A stretch of DNA of 37,714 nt from Deltaproteobacteria bacterium. Its GTDB lineage: Bacteria; Campylobacterota_A; Desulfurellia; JAGGSF01. Positions 130 through 9,160 of the stretch are shown piece by piece. The notes below the pieces were generated by a model, which did not search any database, was not told where the DNA came from, and saw nothing but the letters and a program-made list of their open reading frames with translations. Positions within the stretch are counted from its first letter, which is position 1; the number at the start of each line of letters is the position of its first letter. The stretch is from positions 1-37,714 of the forward strand of contig JAGGSB010000009.1 in the NCBI GenBank assembly GCA_021159305.1, in the 5' to 3' direction. The translations under genes and the position numbers were made by a program.

Positions 130-1632
130 ATGAGTAAATCTGTATCTATGAATCCCAATAGATTAGTACAATATTTACAAAAACCAGCGGAGGAATTCAC
201 TAAAACAGACCTAATTAAATTCATAAAAGAAAATAACATTGAAATAGTTAACTTTAGATATGTAGGTGGAGATGGTAATCTAAAAACACTCAATTTCGTA
301 ATTAATAGCGAAGAACATTTAGATCAACTATTGGCTATAGGAGAAAGAGTTGATGGTTCAAGCCTTTTTACCTATGTAGATGCAGCCTCCAGCGATTTAT
401 ATGTCATTCCTCGCTACAAAACAGCTTTTGTAAACCCATTCTCCTCTATTCCTGCTGTGGACATACTATGTTCTTATTATACATACGAAGGGGAACTCTT
501 ACCCAGTGCTCCGGAAAACATACTAAGAAAAGCGCAACAAGTACTAAAAAAGAAAACAGGAATGACATTAGAAGCTTTAGGAGAGTTGGAATATTATATC
601 ATTTATGAACCAGATAGTGATTTTTATCCAGTTAGTTCTCAAAAGGGTTATCAAGAATCCTCCCCATTTTGCAAGTTTGAAAAGCTAAGATGTGAAATTA
701 TGCAAGCTATTGTTCAAGCGGGAGGAAAGGTAAAATATGGTCATTCCGAAGTGGGCAATATTTCCGATGGAAACCGTAAAATGGAACAACATGAAGTTGA
801 GTTTCTTCCTACACAATTAGAGGATGCGGCAGATCAACTCGCTATTGCAAAGTGGATGATAAGAATGTTGGGGCAAAAATATGGAGTTTCTATAACCTTT
901 GCTCCTAAGATTATAGTAGGACATGCTGGAAGCGGTTTGCACATTCACACCCGACTGCTCAAAAATAAAAAAAATATGTTGGTAAAAAATGGCAAATTAA
1001 GTGATATAGCCAAAAAGGTTATTGCGGGGTACTTGGATTTAGCTTCTTCATTGACTGCTTTTGGTAATACTGTTCCTACTTCCTATTTAAGATTAGTTCC
1101 CCATCAAGAAGCACCAACCAACATCTGCTGGGGGGAGAGAAACCGCTCTACACTCATTAGGGTACCTTTGGGATGGTTAGGCAAGTATGATATGGTTAGG
1201 AAAGTTAATCCTCAAAGCAAAGAAGAAATTCCAAAGTTTATTGAGAAGCAGACCATAGAACTTCGATCTGCTGACGGTTCAGCTAATGTCTACTTATTGT
1301 TAGCAGGGATGGCAGTAGCCGCCCGTCATGGATTGGAGATGGAAGATTCATTGAAATTGGCTGAAAAGCTTCGTGTAAATGTGAATATCTTTTCCCCAGA
1401 ATATGAAAAACTTCAGGAAAAGTTACCTCATTTACCATCTTCATGTTGGGAATCAGCCGAAGTTCTCTTAAAGGATAGGGAAATATATCAAGCATATAAT
1501 GTTTTCCCAGCGGGCGCAATTGATAATATAGCAAAAAAGCTCCGTGATTACGATGATAAAAACTTGAGTGAAAAGCTTTATGGCAAAGAAGAAGAAATTG
1601 AAAAGTTGGTTAAAAAATACCTGCATTGTTAA
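130..1632 (+). CDS. Glutamine synthetase, Bacteroidota-type (about 500 aa)
   Basis: This 500-aa protein is a type I-fold glutamine synthetase, which makes glutamine from glutamate, ammonia and ATP in the cytoplasm. The expected active-site motifs appear in order: VDGSSL, GELEYY, GHSEVGN, QHEVEF, AGSGLHIHTRL, PHQEAPTN, ERNRSTLIRVP and ELRSADGSANVYL. These supply the usual metal-binding Glu residues, the ammonia-loop Asp, the catalytic His and the ATP/glutamate Arg residues, so it should be active. Its N-terminus (MNPN..VQYLQKPAEEFTK, VGGDGNLKTLNFV) and length resemble, from memory, the roughly 500-aa enzymes of Bacteroidota and not the classical GSI-alpha encoded next door. No adenylylation-site motif is recognised. 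Start 130 is chosen from the GGAGG site and promoter. The gene is apparently monocistronic: it converges on an mnmG remnant and is followed by a second, different glnA. Lateral acquisition is possible but not shown here. Confidence 0.9.
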   Translation: MSKSVSMNPNRLVQYLQKPAEEFTKTDLIKFIKENNIEIVNFRYVGGDGNLKTLNFVINSEEHLDQLLAIGERVDGSSLFTYVDAASSDLYVIPRYKTAFVNPFSSIPAVDILCSYYTYEGELLPSAPENILRKAQQVLKKKTGMTLEALGELEYYIIYEPDSDFYPVSSQKGYQESSPFCKFEKLRCEIMQAIVQAGGKVKYGHSEVGNISDGNRKMEQHEVEFLPTQLEDAADQLAIAKWMIRMLGQKYGVSITFAPKIIVGHAGSGLHIHTRLLKNKKNMLVKNGKLSDIAKKVIAGYLDLASSLTAFGNTVPTSYLRLVPHQEAPTNICWGERNRSTLIRVPLGWLGKYDMVRKVNPQSKEEIPKFIEKQTIELRSADGSANVYLLLAGMAVAARHGLEMEDSLKLAEKLRVNVNIFSPEYEKLQEKLPHLPSSCWESAEVLLKDREIYQAYNVFPAGAIDNIAKKLRDYDDKNLSEKLYGKEEEIEKLVKKYLHC

Positions 1633-1641
1633 TCACTTTAC

Positions 1642-1800
1642 TTAAGCTATCTTTCTCTTCTTGAGATAAATCTGAAGAATAATTAAAGCAGCAGGTGTCA
1701 CACCTGAAATATGGTTTGCTTGTGCCGAAGACCCTGCTTTTATCCTTGCCAATTTCTCTTTTATTTCGTTGGAAATATCTTTTGATTGTAACCTATCTAT
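1642..1800 (-). pseudogene. mnmG: Remnant of the 3' end of a second mnmG (gidA) copy
   Basis: Read on the reverse strand, this stretch encodes 52 residues plus stop that align without gaps to the C-terminus of the intact MnmG encoded at 5849-7726. I count 35 of 52 identities. The last 18 residues, ending in KKRKIA, are identical, and a 32-nt exact DNA match lies at 1661-1692 versus 5868-5899. The remnant has lost residues conserved in MnmG: the family motif LGQAxRISG reads SAQANHISG, replacing Leu, Gly and Arg. No homology continues beyond about 1800, so some 570 codons are missing and no start is present. It is a decayed duplicate or rearrangement scar lying tail-to-tail with the glutamine synthetase at 130-1632. 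The intergenic region 1633-1867 holds this remnant plus the glnA leader. Confidence 0.85.
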
Positions 1801-1802
1801 AA

Positions 1803-1867
1803 CCACAATTGTAACATTGTAGTGGTAAAAAAGTTTTGTTTGCTATAAAATAAAAAAGGAGGATGAA
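1803..1867 (+). promoter_or_regulatory. Leader and possible promoter/operator region of glnA
   Basis: A -10-like TATAAA is at 1844-1849, but no good -35 box lies 16-18 nt upstream. An imperfect dyad with outer arms CCAC (1803-1806) and GTGG (1822-1825) sits just upstream and could be an activator or repressor site. The ribosome binding site GGAGG is at 1858-1862, 5 nt before the glnA ATG. The dyad's meaning is inference. Confidence 0.3.
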
Positions 1868-3199
1868 ATGAGGAAAGATGAAGCAAAGGAATTTGTTTTA
1901 AAAACAGTAAAGGAATACGATGTTAAATTTATAAGGTTTTGGTTTACCGACATTTTAGGCTTTGTAAAATCTTTCGCCATTCCGGTAGAGGGGTTAGAAA
2001 AAGCCCTTGAAGAAGGAATGGGGTTTGATGGCTCATCCATCGAGGGTTTTGTGCGCATAGAAGAAAGTGATATGATTGCAAGACCGGATCCAAACACATT
2101 TACATTGCTTCCCTGGAGACCGAAGGAAAAGGCAGTGGCAAAGATGTTCTGCGACATCTACTGGCCAGATGGCAGGCCTTTTGAAGGAGATCCCAGGTAT
2201 ATACTCAAGAGAAATATGAAAAAGGCTCAGGATATGGGATTCACCTACTATGTTGGACCGGAGTTGGAATACTTTTATTTCAAAAGTGCCGAAAATCCAG
2301 AGCCTTTAGACCAGGGAGGATATTTTGATATGCCTCCTCAAGAGCTTGCTACAGGGCTCAAGAGAGAAACCATCCTTACATTGGAGGAGATGGGTATTCC
2401 AGTAGAATACAGTCATCATGAAGTTGCCCCCTCTCAACACGAGATAGACCTCCATTACACGGATGCGCTTACTATGGCCGATAATATGATGACTCATCGT
2501 ATAGTGGTAAAACATATAGCAATAGAACATGGAGTGTATGCTACATTCATGCCCAAACCCTTATTCGGTGTAAATGGAAACGGAATGCATGTCCATCAGT
2601 CTCTGTTTAAAGGTGATACCAACGTATTTTTCGATCCCAATGATGAATATCACCTTTCAAAGACAGGGAAATCCTACCTTGCAGGACTTTTAATATATGC
2701 TCCAGAAATTACTGCTGTCATTTGTCAATGGGCTAACTCATACAAGAGACTTATTCCTGGATTTGAAGCCCCTGCTTATATCTGCTGGGGAAGAAGAAAC
2801 CGTTCAGCTCTGGTAAGAGTTCCGGAATACGAACCAGGAAAAGAAAAAGCTACTCGCTTAGAGCTTCGTGCGGCGGATCCGGCATGTAATCCTTATCTTA
2901 CATTCAGTACAATGTTAGGGGCAGGCCTAAAAGGTATAGAGAGCAACTTAGAGCCACCCGAACCAGTAGAAGAGGATGTATTCACTCTTTCAAAAGAAGA
3001 GAGAAAGAAGAGAAACATAGGTCTTATGCCCGGAAATTTGGGAGAAGCAGCGGCACTCATGAAAAAGAGCTACTTAATGAAAGAAGTTCTCGGAGATCAT
3101 GCATTTGAAGCTTTCTTGAGAAATAAGGAAAAGGAATGGAACGAATACAGGTCACAGGTAACAGAATACGAGATAAAGAAGTATTTACCGATTTTGTAA
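1868..3199 (+). CDS. glnA: Glutamine synthetase type I-alpha
   Basis: This 443-aa enzyme carries all class I glutamine synthetase signatures: GFDGSSIEGF (Asp54), GPELEYFYF, HHEVAPSQHEIDLHY, NGNGMHVHQSL, RRNRSALVRVP and ELRAADPACNPYL. Length and sequence fit the GSI-alpha branch (Firmicutes, Thermotogae, archaea), which lacks the adenylylation loop of the longer GSI-beta enzymes. Arg63 in EGFVRIEESD corresponds to the Arg that mediates feedback inhibition of the Bacillus subtilis enzyme. Regulation is therefore more likely by feedback and transcription than by adenylylation. A strong GGAGG precedes the ATG. nadE, which needs glutamine as nitrogen donor, follows 11 nt after the stop and is probably co-transcribed. 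This is the second glutamine synthetase in 3.2 kb and belongs to a different subfamily from the first. Confidence 0.95.
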   Translation: MRKDEAKEFVLKTVKEYDVKFIRFWFTDILGFVKSFAIPVEGLEKALEEGMGFDGSSIEGFVRIEESDMIARPDPNTFTLLPWRPKEKAVAKMFCDIYWPDGRPFEGDPRYILKRNMKKAQDMGFTYYVGPELEYFYFKSAENPEPLDQGGYFDMPPQELATGLKRETILTLEEMGIPVEYSHHEVAPSQHEIDLHYTDALTMADNMMTHRIVVKHIAIEHGVYATFMPKPLFGVNGNGMHVHQSLFKGDTNVFFDPNDEYHLSKTGKSYLAGLLIYAPEITAVICQWANSYKRLIPGFEAPAYICWGRRNRSALVRVPEYEPGKEKATRLELRAADPACNPYLTFSTMLGAGLKGIESNLEPPEPVEEDVFTLSKEERKKRNIGLMPGNLGEAAALMKKSYLMKEVLGDHAFEAFLRNKEKEWNEYRSQVTEYEIKKYLPIL

Positions 3200-3210: not shown

Positions 3211-4938
3211 TTGCGCATAGGTTTAGCGCAGATTAATGCCATCGTGGGTGACTTTGGGGGCAACACCAAAAAGATATTGCAAGCTGTTGATAATGCAAGA
3301 TCTTTAGGTGTTGACCTCCTCACACTCCCTGAACTTGCAATTTGTGGTTATCCGCCGGAAGACTTGTTGCTTAAATCACAGTTCATTGAGAAAAATCTAA
3401 AGTGCCTCGAAAAGATTATAGATTATTCTTCTAATATTGCTATCATAGTAGGATTTGTTGATGTAAAAAGTGATATCTACAATGCCGCAGCGGTGATCTA
3501 TGATAAAAAACTCATGGGAACATATCATAAGATTTACTTACCCAACCATGGAGTGTTTGATGAAAACAGGTATTTCCGGGCAGGTAATGCATGTACTACA
3601 TATAAGATAGCAGGCGTTAATGTAGGAGTGAGCATCTGCGAGGATATATGGTATGAAGCAGGGCCGGTTACAGTTCAATCCTATGCGGGGGCAGAAGTAA
3701 TAGTCAATATAAATGCTTCTCCTTATCATTTTGGCAAGAGAAAGTTTAAAGAAAAGATGCTTTCCGTTCGGGCTTTAGACAATACAGTTATAGTGGTATA
3801 CAATAACCTGGTTGGGGGACAGGATGAACTTGTCTTTGATGGAAATAGTATGGTTTTTGATGAAAAGGGACAAATGCTTGCAAGAGGAAAATCATTTGAG
3901 GAAGATTTTATAACAGTGGATTTGAATATCAATTCTATTTTTAAAAGTCGTCTTCACGACCCCAGGAGAAGAAAAGAAGTATTAAGTTTTGAAGAAAAAA
4001 GATGGAAAACGGGTCATGTGGAAGTATCTCAAACTCCTATAATTAGTCCGAAACCTGCTCTACCACCAAGAGAAATAGTTGAAAAAGATCCCATAGATGA
4101 AGCTTATAAGGCTCTTGTTTTAGGAACACGTGATTATGTGCATAAAAATGGTTTCAAAAAAGTGCTGGTGGGTCTTTCTGGCGGTGTAGATTCGAGTTTG
4201 GTAGCCATGATAGCCGTAGATGCCTTAGGAGCATCCAATGTGGTGGGTATATCCATGCCATCTAGGTATTCTTCAGAAGAAAGTATATTAGATGCAGAGA
4301 TTCTCTCTAAAAATCTGAATATGAAGTTTTTGACCATTCCTATTGAAAAGACCTTTTCGTCTTATCTTGAAACATTAAAACAAGCCTTTAAAGGCACAAA
4401 GCCAAATGTGGCCGAAGAAAACATTCAGGCCCGCATAAGAGGTAATATTCTTATGGCGATATCCAATAAATTCGGATGGCTTGTTTTAGCCACGGGGAAC
4501 AAGAGTGAAACAGCTACAGGATATTGCACCCTTTACGGAGATATGGCAGGAGGATTCGCCGTCATAAAAGATGTTCCAAAAACTATGGTTTACAAACTGG
4601 TAGAACATAGAAATAAAATAGCAGGATTCGACCTCACGCCTCAAAATGTTTTAACCAAGCCCCCCTCTGCCGAACTCAGACCCGACCAAAAAGACATAGA
4701 CACACTTCCTCCTTATGACTTACTCGACCCCATACTTCAAGCTTATGTCGAAGAGGATAAAGCTATAGAAGAGATCATCGGCATGGGTTTTGATAGAGAA
4801 ATAGTGGAAAAAGCAGTTAAGCTTGTCGATAAAAGTGAATACAAGCGTCGCCAGTCTCCTCCAGGTATTAAGATAACTTCCCGTGCCTTCGGCAGAGACA
4901 GAAGACTACCCATAACATATTATCCTCTATGGAAATAA
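3211..4938 (+). CDS. nadE: Glutamine-dependent NAD+ synthetase
   Basis: This 575-aa two-domain enzyme amidates nicotinic acid adenine dinucleotide to NAD+ using glutamine. The N-terminal nitrilase-fold glutaminase domain (about 1-260) shows its triad: Glu41 in LPELAICGYPPEDLL, Lys107 in YHKIYLPN and Cys143 in SICEDIWYE. The C-terminal synthetase domain starts near 295 and has the PP-loop SGGVDSS at 323-329, ATGNKSE, and the ELRPDQKDIDTLPPYD segment typical of glutamine-dependent forms. The frame stays open upstream into glnA, but homology begins at the TTG at 3211, which has AAGGTG 7 nt upstream. Coupling to glnA makes metabolic sense because NadE consumes glutamine. The 3' end overlaps the convergent radical SAM gene by 19 bp. 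Confidence 0.94.
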   Translation: MRIGLAQINAIVGDFGGNTKKILQAVDNARSLGVDLLTLPELAICGYPPEDLLLKSQFIEKNLKCLEKIIDYSSNIAIIVGFVDVKSDIYNAAAVIYDKKLMGTYHKIYLPNHGVFDENRYFRAGNACTTYKIAGVNVGVSICEDIWYEAGPVTVQSYAGAEVIVNINASPYHFGKRKFKEKMLSVRALDNTVIVVYNNLVGGQDELVFDGNSMVFDEKGQMLARGKSFEEDFITVDLNINSIFKSRLHDPRRRKEVLSFEEKRWKTGHVEVSQTPIISPKPALPPREIVEKDPIDEAYKALVLGTRDYVHKNGFKKVLVGLSGGVDSSLVAMIAVDALGASNVVGISMPSRYSSEESILDAEILSKNLNMKFLTIPIEKTFSSYLETLKQAFKGTKPNVAEENIQARIRGNILMAISNKFGWLVLATGNKSETATGYCTLYGDMAGGFAVIKDVPKTMVYKLVEHRNKIAGFDLTPQNVLTKPPSAELRPDQKDIDTLPPYDLLDPILQAYVEEDKAIEEIIGMGFDREIVEKAVKLVDKSEYKRRQSPPGIKITSRAFGRDRRLPITYYPLWK

Positions 4939-5843
4939 TTTTTGCCCTGCCATGTATCTCTCTTGATCAATGTCTCTTGTATTAAATTTAATGTCTCTCT
5001 TTTCCTTAAAGACCAGGCAGGAGATAGAAGTTCATCCGCTCTTGGGTCTCCCATCAACCTTTGAATTACAGCATTCGGAGGCAACAACTCTAAACTATCT
5101 ACCAAAATATCTACGAATTCTTCTTGCTCCAATGGTCTATACTTGCCATTTTCATACATCTTTGCCAACTTAGTTCCCTTTACCACATACAGATGATGAA
5201 ATTTAATACCATCTATCGATAGTTTTGATAAAGCCTTTACCGTTTCCAGCATATCCTCTTTTGTCTCTTCAGGAAGACCCAATATGATATGGACACAGAT
5301 CAGTATGTTTCTATTTGCAGTCATCTCCACCGCTTTTAAAAAATCCTCATAGCTATGACCTCGATTTATGAGTTTCAAGGTCCTGTTATGGATAGACTGA
5401 AGACCATATTCAATCCATACCTGATATTCTTTGGCATAACTTTGTATCAAATCCAGTATCTTTTCATCTACACAATCCGGTCTTGTTCCTATGGAAAGAC
5501 CCACAATATCTTCACAGGATAAAGCTTCGTCGTACAGTGATTTTAATACTTCATAAGGTGCGTAGGTGTTGCAAAACGACTGAAAATAGGCGATAAACTT
5601 CTTTGCCTTGTATTTTTTCCTTAAGAATATCTCTGCTTGAGTAATCTGCTCGGAGATGGAAAGACCCTTTCTGTATGCACCCGTGCCTGAACCATAAGCA
5701 TTACAGTAAATGCAACCTCCATATCCCTTTGCGCCATCTCGATTGGGACAACTAAGTCCCGCATCTAATGCAATCTTCTGCACCCGACAATTAAAGGTCT
5801 TGCGTAAAAATGTGTTGAGATCATAATATCGCTTTTTACACAT
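4920..5843 (-). CDS. YhcC/TIGR01212-family radical SAM protein
   Basis: The 307-aa protein matches the TIGR01212 (E. coli YhcC-like) radical SAM family, whose reaction is not established to my knowledge. Cys32, Cys44 and Cys47 in SCPNRDG...GGCIYCNA would ligate the [4Fe-4S] cluster that cleaves S-adenosylmethionine. GLSIGTRPDCVDE, EYGLQSIH and GLPEETKEDM follow, as in Elp3-like radical SAM barrels. The gene starts 5 nt after the mnmG stop and has no obvious ribosome binding site, so it is probably co-transcribed and translationally coupled with mnmG. Its stop lies inside the 3' end of nadE (19-bp convergent overlap). Partnership with the tRNA-modifying MnmG and with glutamate/glutamine genes hints at a role in tRNA or nitrogen metabolism; that is inference only. 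Confidence 0.88.
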   Translation of the reverse strand: MCKKRYYDLNTFLRKTFNCRVQKIALDAGLSCPNRDGAKGYGGCIYCNAYGSGTGAYRKGLSISEQITQAEIFLRKKYKAKKFIAYFQSFCNTYAPYEVLKSLYDEALSCEDIVGLSIGTRPDCVDEKILDLIQSYAKEYQVWIEYGLQSIHNRTLKLINRGHSYEDFLKAVEMTANRNILICVHIILGLPEETKEDMLETVKALSKLSIDGIKFHHLYVVKGTKLAKMYENGKYRPLEQEEFVDILVDSLELLPPNAVIQRLMGDPRADELLSPAWSLRKRETLNLIQETLIKRDTWQGKNYFHRG

Positions 5844-5848
5844 TTTAT

Positions 5849-7726
5849 TTAAGCTATTTTTCTTTTTTTGAGATAAATCTGAAGAATAATTAAAGCAGCT
5901 GGTGTTATGCCAGAAATGCGACCTGCTTGTCCCAAAGATGCAGGTTTTATATTTGTCAACTTTTCCTTCACCTCATTGGAAAGACCAACCATATTATAAT
6001 AATCTATGTCTGGAGGCAATTTTAAATATTCAAACTTTTTAAATCTTTCCACCTGCTCTTTTTGTAATTTAATATAACCTTCATATTTCATCTGAAAACT
6101 CACTTCATCTTTCACATCCTGTGGTAAATTTTTTAACCCCTCATCAAATACATACAATTCATCAATATTTACTTCTGGTCTTTTCAAAAGTTCTCTCAAG
6201 GTAACAGGATTTTTGATGTGAGATGTGCCTACATTTTTCAACATACTGTTAGTGGCAGCATTGGGCTTAAGTCTAATCTCGCCCAATTTTTCCAGCGTTT
6301 TTTCAATATCTTCTTTTTTATTTAAGTATTTTTTATATATACTGTCATTTATCAGTCCCAGTTCATGCCCAAATGGCATAAGTCTTAAATCTGCGCTATC
6401 TTCTCTTAAAAGCAGGCGATATTCGGCTCGGGATGTAAACATCCTGTAGGCTTCCTTTGTTCCTTTTGTTACCAGATCATCTATCAGAACACCAATGTAG
6501 GCTTGAGAACGGTCTAAAATAAGAGGCGATTCTCCTCTTACATATTTTACCGCATTGATGCCTGCCATGATTCCCTGAGCAGCGGCCTCTTCATAACCTG
6601 TGGTGCCATTTATCTGACCGGCAGAGAATAGTCCCTTTATCAATTTCGTTTCCAGGGATGGCTTCAACTGAATAGGGTTGACATAGTCAAATTCAATGCC
6701 ATATCCGGGTTTTATAATCTCCGCCTTCTCCAATCCCTTTATGCTTCTTACCATCTTTATTTGAACATCTATGGGCAAACTGGTAAACAAGCCGTTGGGG
6801 TAATATTCGGTAGTATTTATCCCCTCTGGTTCAATAAAGATCTGATGCCTCTCCTTACCTGAAAATTTGACAATCTTGTCTTCAATAGAAGGACAATACC
6901 TTACTCCTCTGGATTTAATAATTCCCGTAAAGATGGGAGAACGATCAAAGCCACTGCGAATGATATCATGCGTCTTCTGGTTTGTGTATGTGATATAGCA
7001 AGGTATCTGTTCTCTCTCTATCTTTTCCGTAGAGAATGAAAAAGGATGAGGGGGTTCATCTCCGTATTGAGGTTCCATTGAGCTAAAATCAATAGTGCGC
7101 CCGTCTAAACGAGGACAGGTTCCGGTCTTTAATCTTCCTATTTCAAAACCTAATTTCCTCAAACAATCCGATAATTTCTCGGAAGACGGTTCACTAATTC
7201 TTCCTCCTGACCAGTGTTTTAGTCCAACATGAATTAAACCCTTTAAAAATGTTCCCGTGGTTAGTATAACCGTTCTTCCTAAAAATACTTCGTCTATTGA
7301 TGTTTTTACGCCCCTTACTATATTGTCTTCTACTAATATTTCATCAACGATTGCCTGTTTCAATCTGAGATTTGACTGATTTTCTATTATCTTTTTCATC
7401 CTCTGACTGTAGAGTTTCATATCTGCCTGGGCACGAGAAGACCATACTGCAGGACCTCTGCTCATATTCAGACGGTGGAATTGAATGCCTGTCTCATCTA
7501 TATTTTTTGCCATCTCTCCGCCCAGAGCATCTATTTCCTTTACCAGATGCCCCTTTGCCCTTCCTCCGATAGATGGATTACAGGACATATGAGCAATTCT
7601 ATCTGCATCTATAGTAGTAAGGAGTACAAAATGACCCATTCGGGCTGAGGCTAAGGCAGCTTCACAACCCGCATGTCCTGCCCCCACCACAATTACATCG
7701 AATTCTTTGGGATAAGTCGTTAGCAT
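5849..7726 (-). CDS. mnmG: tRNA uridine-5-carboxymethylaminomethyl modification enzyme MnmG
   Basis: MnmG (GidA) is the FAD-dependent partner of MnmE and installs carboxymethylaminomethyl or aminomethyl groups at C5 of wobble uridine in certain tRNAs. The 625-aa length is normal. Seen: the FAD-binding GAGHAGCEAA (residues 15-24), SCNPSIGGRAKGH with Cys49, RYCPSIEDK with Cys278 (the two conserved redox/catalytic cysteines), GQINGTTGYEEAAAQG, the FTSRAEYRLLLREDSADLRL block, and the C-terminal MnmE/tRNA-binding domain ending GQAGRISGITPAA. MnmE is not in the window. A TTGACA promoter lies so close to the ATG that the mRNA may be leaderless, and no Shine-Dalgarno sequence is visible. A degraded copy of this gene's 3' end lies at 1642-1800. 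Confidence 0.96.
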   Translation of the reverse strand: MLTTYPKEFDVIVVGAGHAGCEAALASARMGHFVLLTTIDADRIAHMSCNPSIGGRAKGHLVKEIDALGGEMAKNIDETGIQFHRLNMSRGPAVWSSRAQADMKLYSQRMKKIIENQSNLRLKQAIVDEILVEDNIVRGVKTSIDEVFLGRTVILTTGTFLKGLIHVGLKHWSGGRISEPSSEKLSDCLRKLGFEIGRLKTGTCPRLDGRTIDFSSMEPQYGDEPPHPFSFSTEKIEREQIPCYITYTNQKTHDIIRSGFDRSPIFTGIIKSRGVRYCPSIEDKIVKFSGKERHQIFIEPEGINTTEYYPNGLFTSLPIDVQIKMVRSIKGLEKAEIIKPGYGIEFDYVNPIQLKPSLETKLIKGLFSAGQINGTTGYEEAAAQGIMAGINAVKYVRGESPLILDRSQAYIGVLIDDLVTKGTKEAYRMFTSRAEYRLLLREDSADLRLMPFGHELGLINDSIYKKYLNKKEDIEKTLEKLGEIRLKPNAATNSMLKNVGTSHIKNPVTLRELLKRPEVNIDELYVFDEGLKNLPQDVKDEVSFQMKYEGYIKLQKEQVERFKKFEYLKLPPDIDYYNMVGLSNEVKEKLTNIKPASLGQAGRISGITPAALIILQIYLKKRKIA

Positions 7727-7735
7727 AATAATATA

Positions 7736-7763
7736 AATTTAGAAACTTAAGCTATTCTGTCAA
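7736..7763 (-). promoter_or_regulatory. Predicted promoter of mnmG, giving an almost leaderless transcript
   Basis: On the reverse strand a perfect -35 TTGACA (7763-7758) is separated by 16 nt from a -10-like TAAATT (7741-7736, 4 of 6 matches). Initiation 6-7 nt downstream would fall at about 7729, only 2-3 nt before the ATG at 7726. The lack of any purine-rich ribosome binding site before mnmG fits a leaderless message, but the -10 is weak. The remaining gdhA-mnmG spacer (7764-7810) shows no clear terminator. Confidence 0.4.
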
Positions 7764-7810
7764 GGTCCTGATATATAGATGTCTTATGTGCCTTCCTCGT
7801 GATTTTACAC

Positions 7811-9160
<1,350 letters not shown>

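Follow-up and report, generated by a model that had tools for sequence, protein, structure and literature searches.

Sequence comparison confirms that a short segment between two glutamine synthetase genes, at positions 1642-1773 on the minus strand, is a genuine remnant of the 3' end of an mnmG gene, ordinary in kind. The window, by which we mean the whole 37,714-nucleotide stretch of DNA that was analysed, is the entire contig 9 of a draft assembly (1.08 Mb in 89 contigs; genome G000) and also carries an intact mnmG. On balance, we favor the view that the remnant comes from the end of an mnmG that had diverged and once worked, that most of this gene was deleted, and that its tail was homogenised with the resident gene, leaving the remnant stranded in a rearranging region beside the end of an insertion-sequence-like repeat. 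Two genomes of the same genus, G001 and G002, served for comparison.

The intact mnmG (5849-7726, minus strand) encodes 625 amino acids, is recognized by NCBIfam TIGR00136 with 878 bits, and has a G001 counterpart that is 95% identical. The minus strand of 1645-1800 aligns without gaps to residues 574-625 of this protein, with 35 of 52 residues identical and a stop codon in common (tblastn E 6e-19), and the DNA of 1626-1775 matches the intact gene at 116 of 150 bases (77%; blastn E 1e-30). A 32-nucleotide stretch on the minus strand, 1661-1692, is repeated exactly at 5868-5899 inside the intact mnmG; with 28 mnmG genes from outside the genus, the intact gene shares exact runs of at most 19 nucleotides. 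These searches against 5849-7726 had been proposed in the first-pass annotation of this DNA, and its sequence, strand, coordinates, residue count, and exact repeat were all reproduced. A search of the whole genome returned only two mnmG matches, the intact gene and the remnant (E 1.9e-13). Moreover, Pfam PF13932 (SAM_GIDA_C, the MnmG C-terminal helical domain) recognizes the remnant at an E value of 1e-9, with 38.5 bits against a curated cut-off of 27.1. The first-pass annotation had taken all of 1642-1800 as the mnmG 3' end, which a codon-by-codon comparison upholds only in part: clear homology is restricted to codons 583-625 plus the stop (1642-1773), whereas for codons 574-582 (1774-1800) homology could not be demonstrated, as 15 of 27 bases differ.

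Judged from its codons, the remnant cannot yield an MnmG product, because it is truncated, has lost invariant residues, and has no start. Of the 625 residues it retains 52, the open frame extends only 14 codons further upstream, and neither an ATG nor a ribosome-binding site lies ahead of the homology. The GQA-x-R motif, present in all 30 of the full-length MnmGs that we compared, reads AQANH in the remnant and has thus lost its invariant G and R, which bears out the earlier statement that conserved residues are changed. Most likely, the remnant itself is functionless. An intrinsic terminator for the first glutamine synthetase gene was not found in a terminator scan of the remnant. An imperfect inverted repeat of mnmG has become, through substitutions in the remnant, a perfect palindrome (CAGGTG-TCA-CACCTG) at about 1691-1705; this palindrome lacks a T run and probably arose by chance.

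Identity to the resident gene is unevenly distributed along the remnant. In the upstream part (codons 583-607; 1699-1773, minus strand), 50 of 75 bases are identical and 25 differ, compared with 53 of 57 identical in codons 608-626, the tail that ends in the stop codon (1642-1698, minus strand), where the four differences are all silent and the encoded protein is the same as that of the intact gene (Fisher P 2.5e-4). The upstream tract is as distant from the resident mnmG as that of other families of the class, which reach up to 50 of 75. For the tail, the remnant is identical to the resident gene at 39 of 42 positions, versus 19-30 of 42 for intact genes outside the genus. The length of the longest exact run has a permutation P of 0.003 (0.008 with codons kept as blocks), and the best breakpoint, codon 608, has a P of 0.007 (0.024 with codons intact); these mosaic tests, and the dN/dS tests, use a small sample of 132 informative bp, and the breakpoint was chosen from the same data. 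The closest relative of the remnant is the mnmG of this genus, at 67% amino acid identity to G000 and 65% to G001, with the best other intact protein at 60%, and the KKRKIA terminus is found only in this genus. At the DNA level, the remnant is 77% identical to the G000 gene and 75% identical to that of G001, with four and six tail differences, respectively.

The differences are mostly silent, falling 5, 6, and 18 times at the three codon positions (P 0.004), with a dN of 0.14 and a dS of 0.91 between the remnant and the resident mnmG. In our simulations, the duplicate decayed neutrally, and the resident gene evolved at the dN/dS measured between G000 and G001 (0.12). Simulated decay changed a mean of 17.8 residues in codons 583-625, compared with 10 observed (P 0.0007); the P value was still 0.02 when half of the branch was simulated as neutral, and the data fit only when the neutral share was 30% of the branch or less. 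No simulated schedule (0 of 1500 each) kept the last 18 codons to at most four changes, as in the quiet tail. The substitutions are thus not spread as expected without selection, and the silent bias together with the conserved tail points to divergence mostly before decay, or to recombination.

In the reading that we favor, a whole second mnmG would once have stood just beyond the end of the first glutamine synthetase gene (GS1) and convergent to it. This gene would have diverged earlier as a working gene, either in the relative from which it came or as an old second copy, a step suggested by the substitution pattern, because the remnant differs from the resident gene mainly at silent sites. 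Deletion of about 580 remaining codons would have left the last 43 codons and the stop. The last 18 codons would have come from this lineage's own mnmG, by exchange or by copying, through gene conversion or a crossover near codon 607/608 (about window 1698), as the mosaic identity suggests. However, the sequence after the stop codon of the remnant does not clearly match what lies downstream of the resident gene. This counts against a simple crossover, since that model predicts homology at one joint. The scar lies in a segment around mnmG where G000 kept GS1, the second glutamine synthetase gene (GS2), and nadE, and where the sister genome G001 kept a glutamate synthase (GOGAT) cluster. A full second mnmG beside GS1 was not found in any relative, and so we infer both the parent of the remnant and the sequence of steps from one draft genome. 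Neither of two Bacteroidales genomes has an mnmG within 5 kb of GS1, as linkage in a donor would have it. A phage origin was considered and rejected: the 32-mer, GS1, and MnmG have no relatives in the viral contigs searched.

In the main competing origin, the resident mnmG would have been copied by a tandem or segmental duplication, and the copy would have undergone deletion and neutral decay before gene conversion renewed its tail. The two copies share their orientation and lie 4.2 kb apart, the nearest sequence to the remnant is the mnmG of its own genus, and both copies end in the genus-specific KKRKIA. Yet decay predicts about 18 changed residues, against 10 observed, at the probabilities given above, the upstream tract is as distant as mnmG genes are between families, and G001 holds no trace of a duplicate; we therefore consider this origin unlikely, and a recent tandem duplication followed by simple decay is unlikely as well. 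The first-pass annotation had proposed that an mnmG segment was duplicated, or arrived from a relative, and was then mostly deleted; a remnant of a second mnmG is what we find, with a relative or an old copy fitting better as its source, while the simulations speak against its recent tandem duplication (P 0.0007). The well-kept tail, which no simulated schedule matched, could also be explained if the segment were a conserved functional element (an RNA, a leader peptide, or a DNA site) merely descended from mnmG. This is highly improbable given that Rfam scans at gathering and relaxed thresholds returned no family at threshold, that folding of both strands was only modestly better than that of shuffled sequences (z -1.4 and -2.0) and gave nothing convincing, that the homology has no preceding ATG or ribosome-binding site, and that none of the 60 relatives searched has such a segment next to an intact gene of the same kind. 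Conservation in relatives as a functional RNA or intergenic element had been named in the first-pass annotation as a finding that would overturn its reading, and the Rfam scans and the 60 relatives leave the identification as a remnant standing.

An integrative element that targets the mnmG 3' end, as e14 does in icd, could have left an attachment-site scar, in which one copy would be the 3' end supplied by the element, the other the displaced original end, and the 32-nucleotide stretch the crossover core. An in-frame 3' end with its stop, the shared orientation, and an exact core within diverged flanks, identical at both ends, are what such an event would leave. Between the copies, however, lie only GS2, nadE, and a radical SAM gene, with no integrase or other element gene; the end of the intact copy and its neighbor are unchanged in G001, which has no such block; and homology continues 5' of the core, although none is expected there for a displaced end. 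We judge this scenario improbable, and we give very little credence to the broader proposal that mobile DNA in this lineage recombines at the mnmG 3' end, with the 32-nucleotide stretch as its crossover core, and that the glutamine synthetase genes came in by this route. A wrong join of two sequences during assembly, for example at the 32-nucleotide exact repeat, is very improbable too. It would be in keeping with an 89-contig draft in which the window is a whole contig with a repeat at its left end, but the 32-nucleotide stretch is bordered on both flanks by sequence that differs from the assembly's one other mnmG. A false join would therefore require two more mnmG copies that went unassembled, and GS1 and GS2 have intact open frames on either side.

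GS1 (130-1632, plus strand) is intact to its last residue. Its assignment to the Bacteroidota type in the first-pass annotation is borne out by full-length identities of 51% to Bacteroidales relatives and 55-56% to proteins on Parabacteroides, Phocaeicola, and Bacteroides records; the nearest other match among the 60 relatives searched is 39% identical. After an intergenic leader (1801-1867, plus strand) with the ribosome-binding site aaaggagg just before 1868, GS2 (1868-3199, plus strand) encodes a GlnA type I enzyme (TIGR00653, 519 bits), and nadE (3211-4938, plus strand) encodes a glutamine-dependent NAD+ synthase (NF010588). The search for relatives without the glutamine synthetase gene, which had been suggested as a check, succeeded: GS1 and GS2 have no counterpart in G001 or G002, and neither does the long nadE, for which G001 lacks a full-length equivalent. 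The tRNA-modification radical SAM gene MnmL/YtqA (4920-5843, minus strand; TIGR01212) directly follows mnmG in G001 too, and similarity between G000 and G001 breaks at window position 4936, exactly at the end of nadE and not at mnmG. Because G001 has the radical SAM gene next to mnmG without GS2 or the long nadE, this gene was not inserted together with them, which contradicts the earlier idea that a glnA-nadE-radical SAM block was inserted between mnmG ends.

The contig starts 129 bp before GS1, and its first 53 nucleotides (1-53) are the end of a dispersed, insertion-sequence-like repeat with a fixed edge. The repeat is also present at four other contig ends of G000 (both ends of C87, the start of C56, and the end of C5; L106-L109), each time with the same sharp edge (...TTTTTAAATGACA) followed by a promoter-like sequence. 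The genes just behind it are GS1, a flavoprotein reductase gene, a malate dehydrogenase-like gene, a small gene before a Sir2-like gene, and a citrate synthase gene. Insertion sequences in a draft assembly look like this: dispersed, sharp-edged, and at contig ends. The repeat is absent from G001, G002, and relatives in the class, and a search in relatives and plasmids gave no family name. Rearrangement between copies of the repeat may have brought GS1 to its present site.

The other side of mnmG differs between the two genomes as well. On contig C170 of G001, gdhA is followed by a PEP-synthase-like gene, a split GOGAT cluster of five genes, mnmG, and the radical SAM gene, in that order. The corresponding interval of the G000 window (7727-7810) has lost the PEP-synthase-like gene and the GOGAT genes (L061, 304-8105), but a relic, the last 18 nucleotides of the final GOGAT gene (7760-7777, minus strand), persists between mnmG and gdhA (7811-9157, minus strand; NF006929); the gene itself still stands in G001. 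GOGAT was not found elsewhere in G000. G000 has two glutamine synthetase genes and no GOGAT, and G001 has GOGAT with no glutamine synthetase detected; as G001 has GOGAT without glutamine synthetase, loss of the glutamine synthetase block in G001 is plausible. In G002, scored as 100% complete, we found neither mnmG nor an MnmL-type radical SAM gene. Behind the radical SAM gene of G001 (L061, 11110-11217), a repeated segment of about 80 bp, also on C183 and C204, encodes an integrase-like tail; it was set aside as a candidate, having no Pfam support and being absent from G000.

As a scrap of a gene, the remnant matters little, but it marks a segment around mnmG that has been rebuilt at least twice. 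On one side of mnmG, the GOGAT cluster was lost; on the other, glutamine synthetases and an NAD synthase were gained or retained. The sister genome shows the reverse. The locus is thus a compact place in which to study change in nitrogen assimilation in a genome of about 1.1 Mb.

Among known systems, the MnmG C-terminal domain PF13932 is recognized in the remnant, but without the rest of MnmG and without GQA-x-R. The e14 prophage of Escherichia coli, whose integration leaves a 163-bp duplicated icd end (PMC6379469), likewise gives a slightly diverged second copy of a housekeeping gene's 3' end, some kilobases off and in the same orientation; at the mnmG locus, by contrast, the interval between the copies holds no integrase or prophage genes, homology flanks the identical core on both sides, and the intact gene end is the same in the sister genome without the block. 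The remnant also resembles an ordinary bacterial pseudogene remnant of a partly deleted second gene copy, which is likewise in frame with an intact paralogue, has lost essential residues, most of the gene, and its start, and occurs singly. Unlike in such a remnant, divergence here is mostly silent and patchy, which points to a once-functional, diverged source with a homogenised tail rather than to simple decay.
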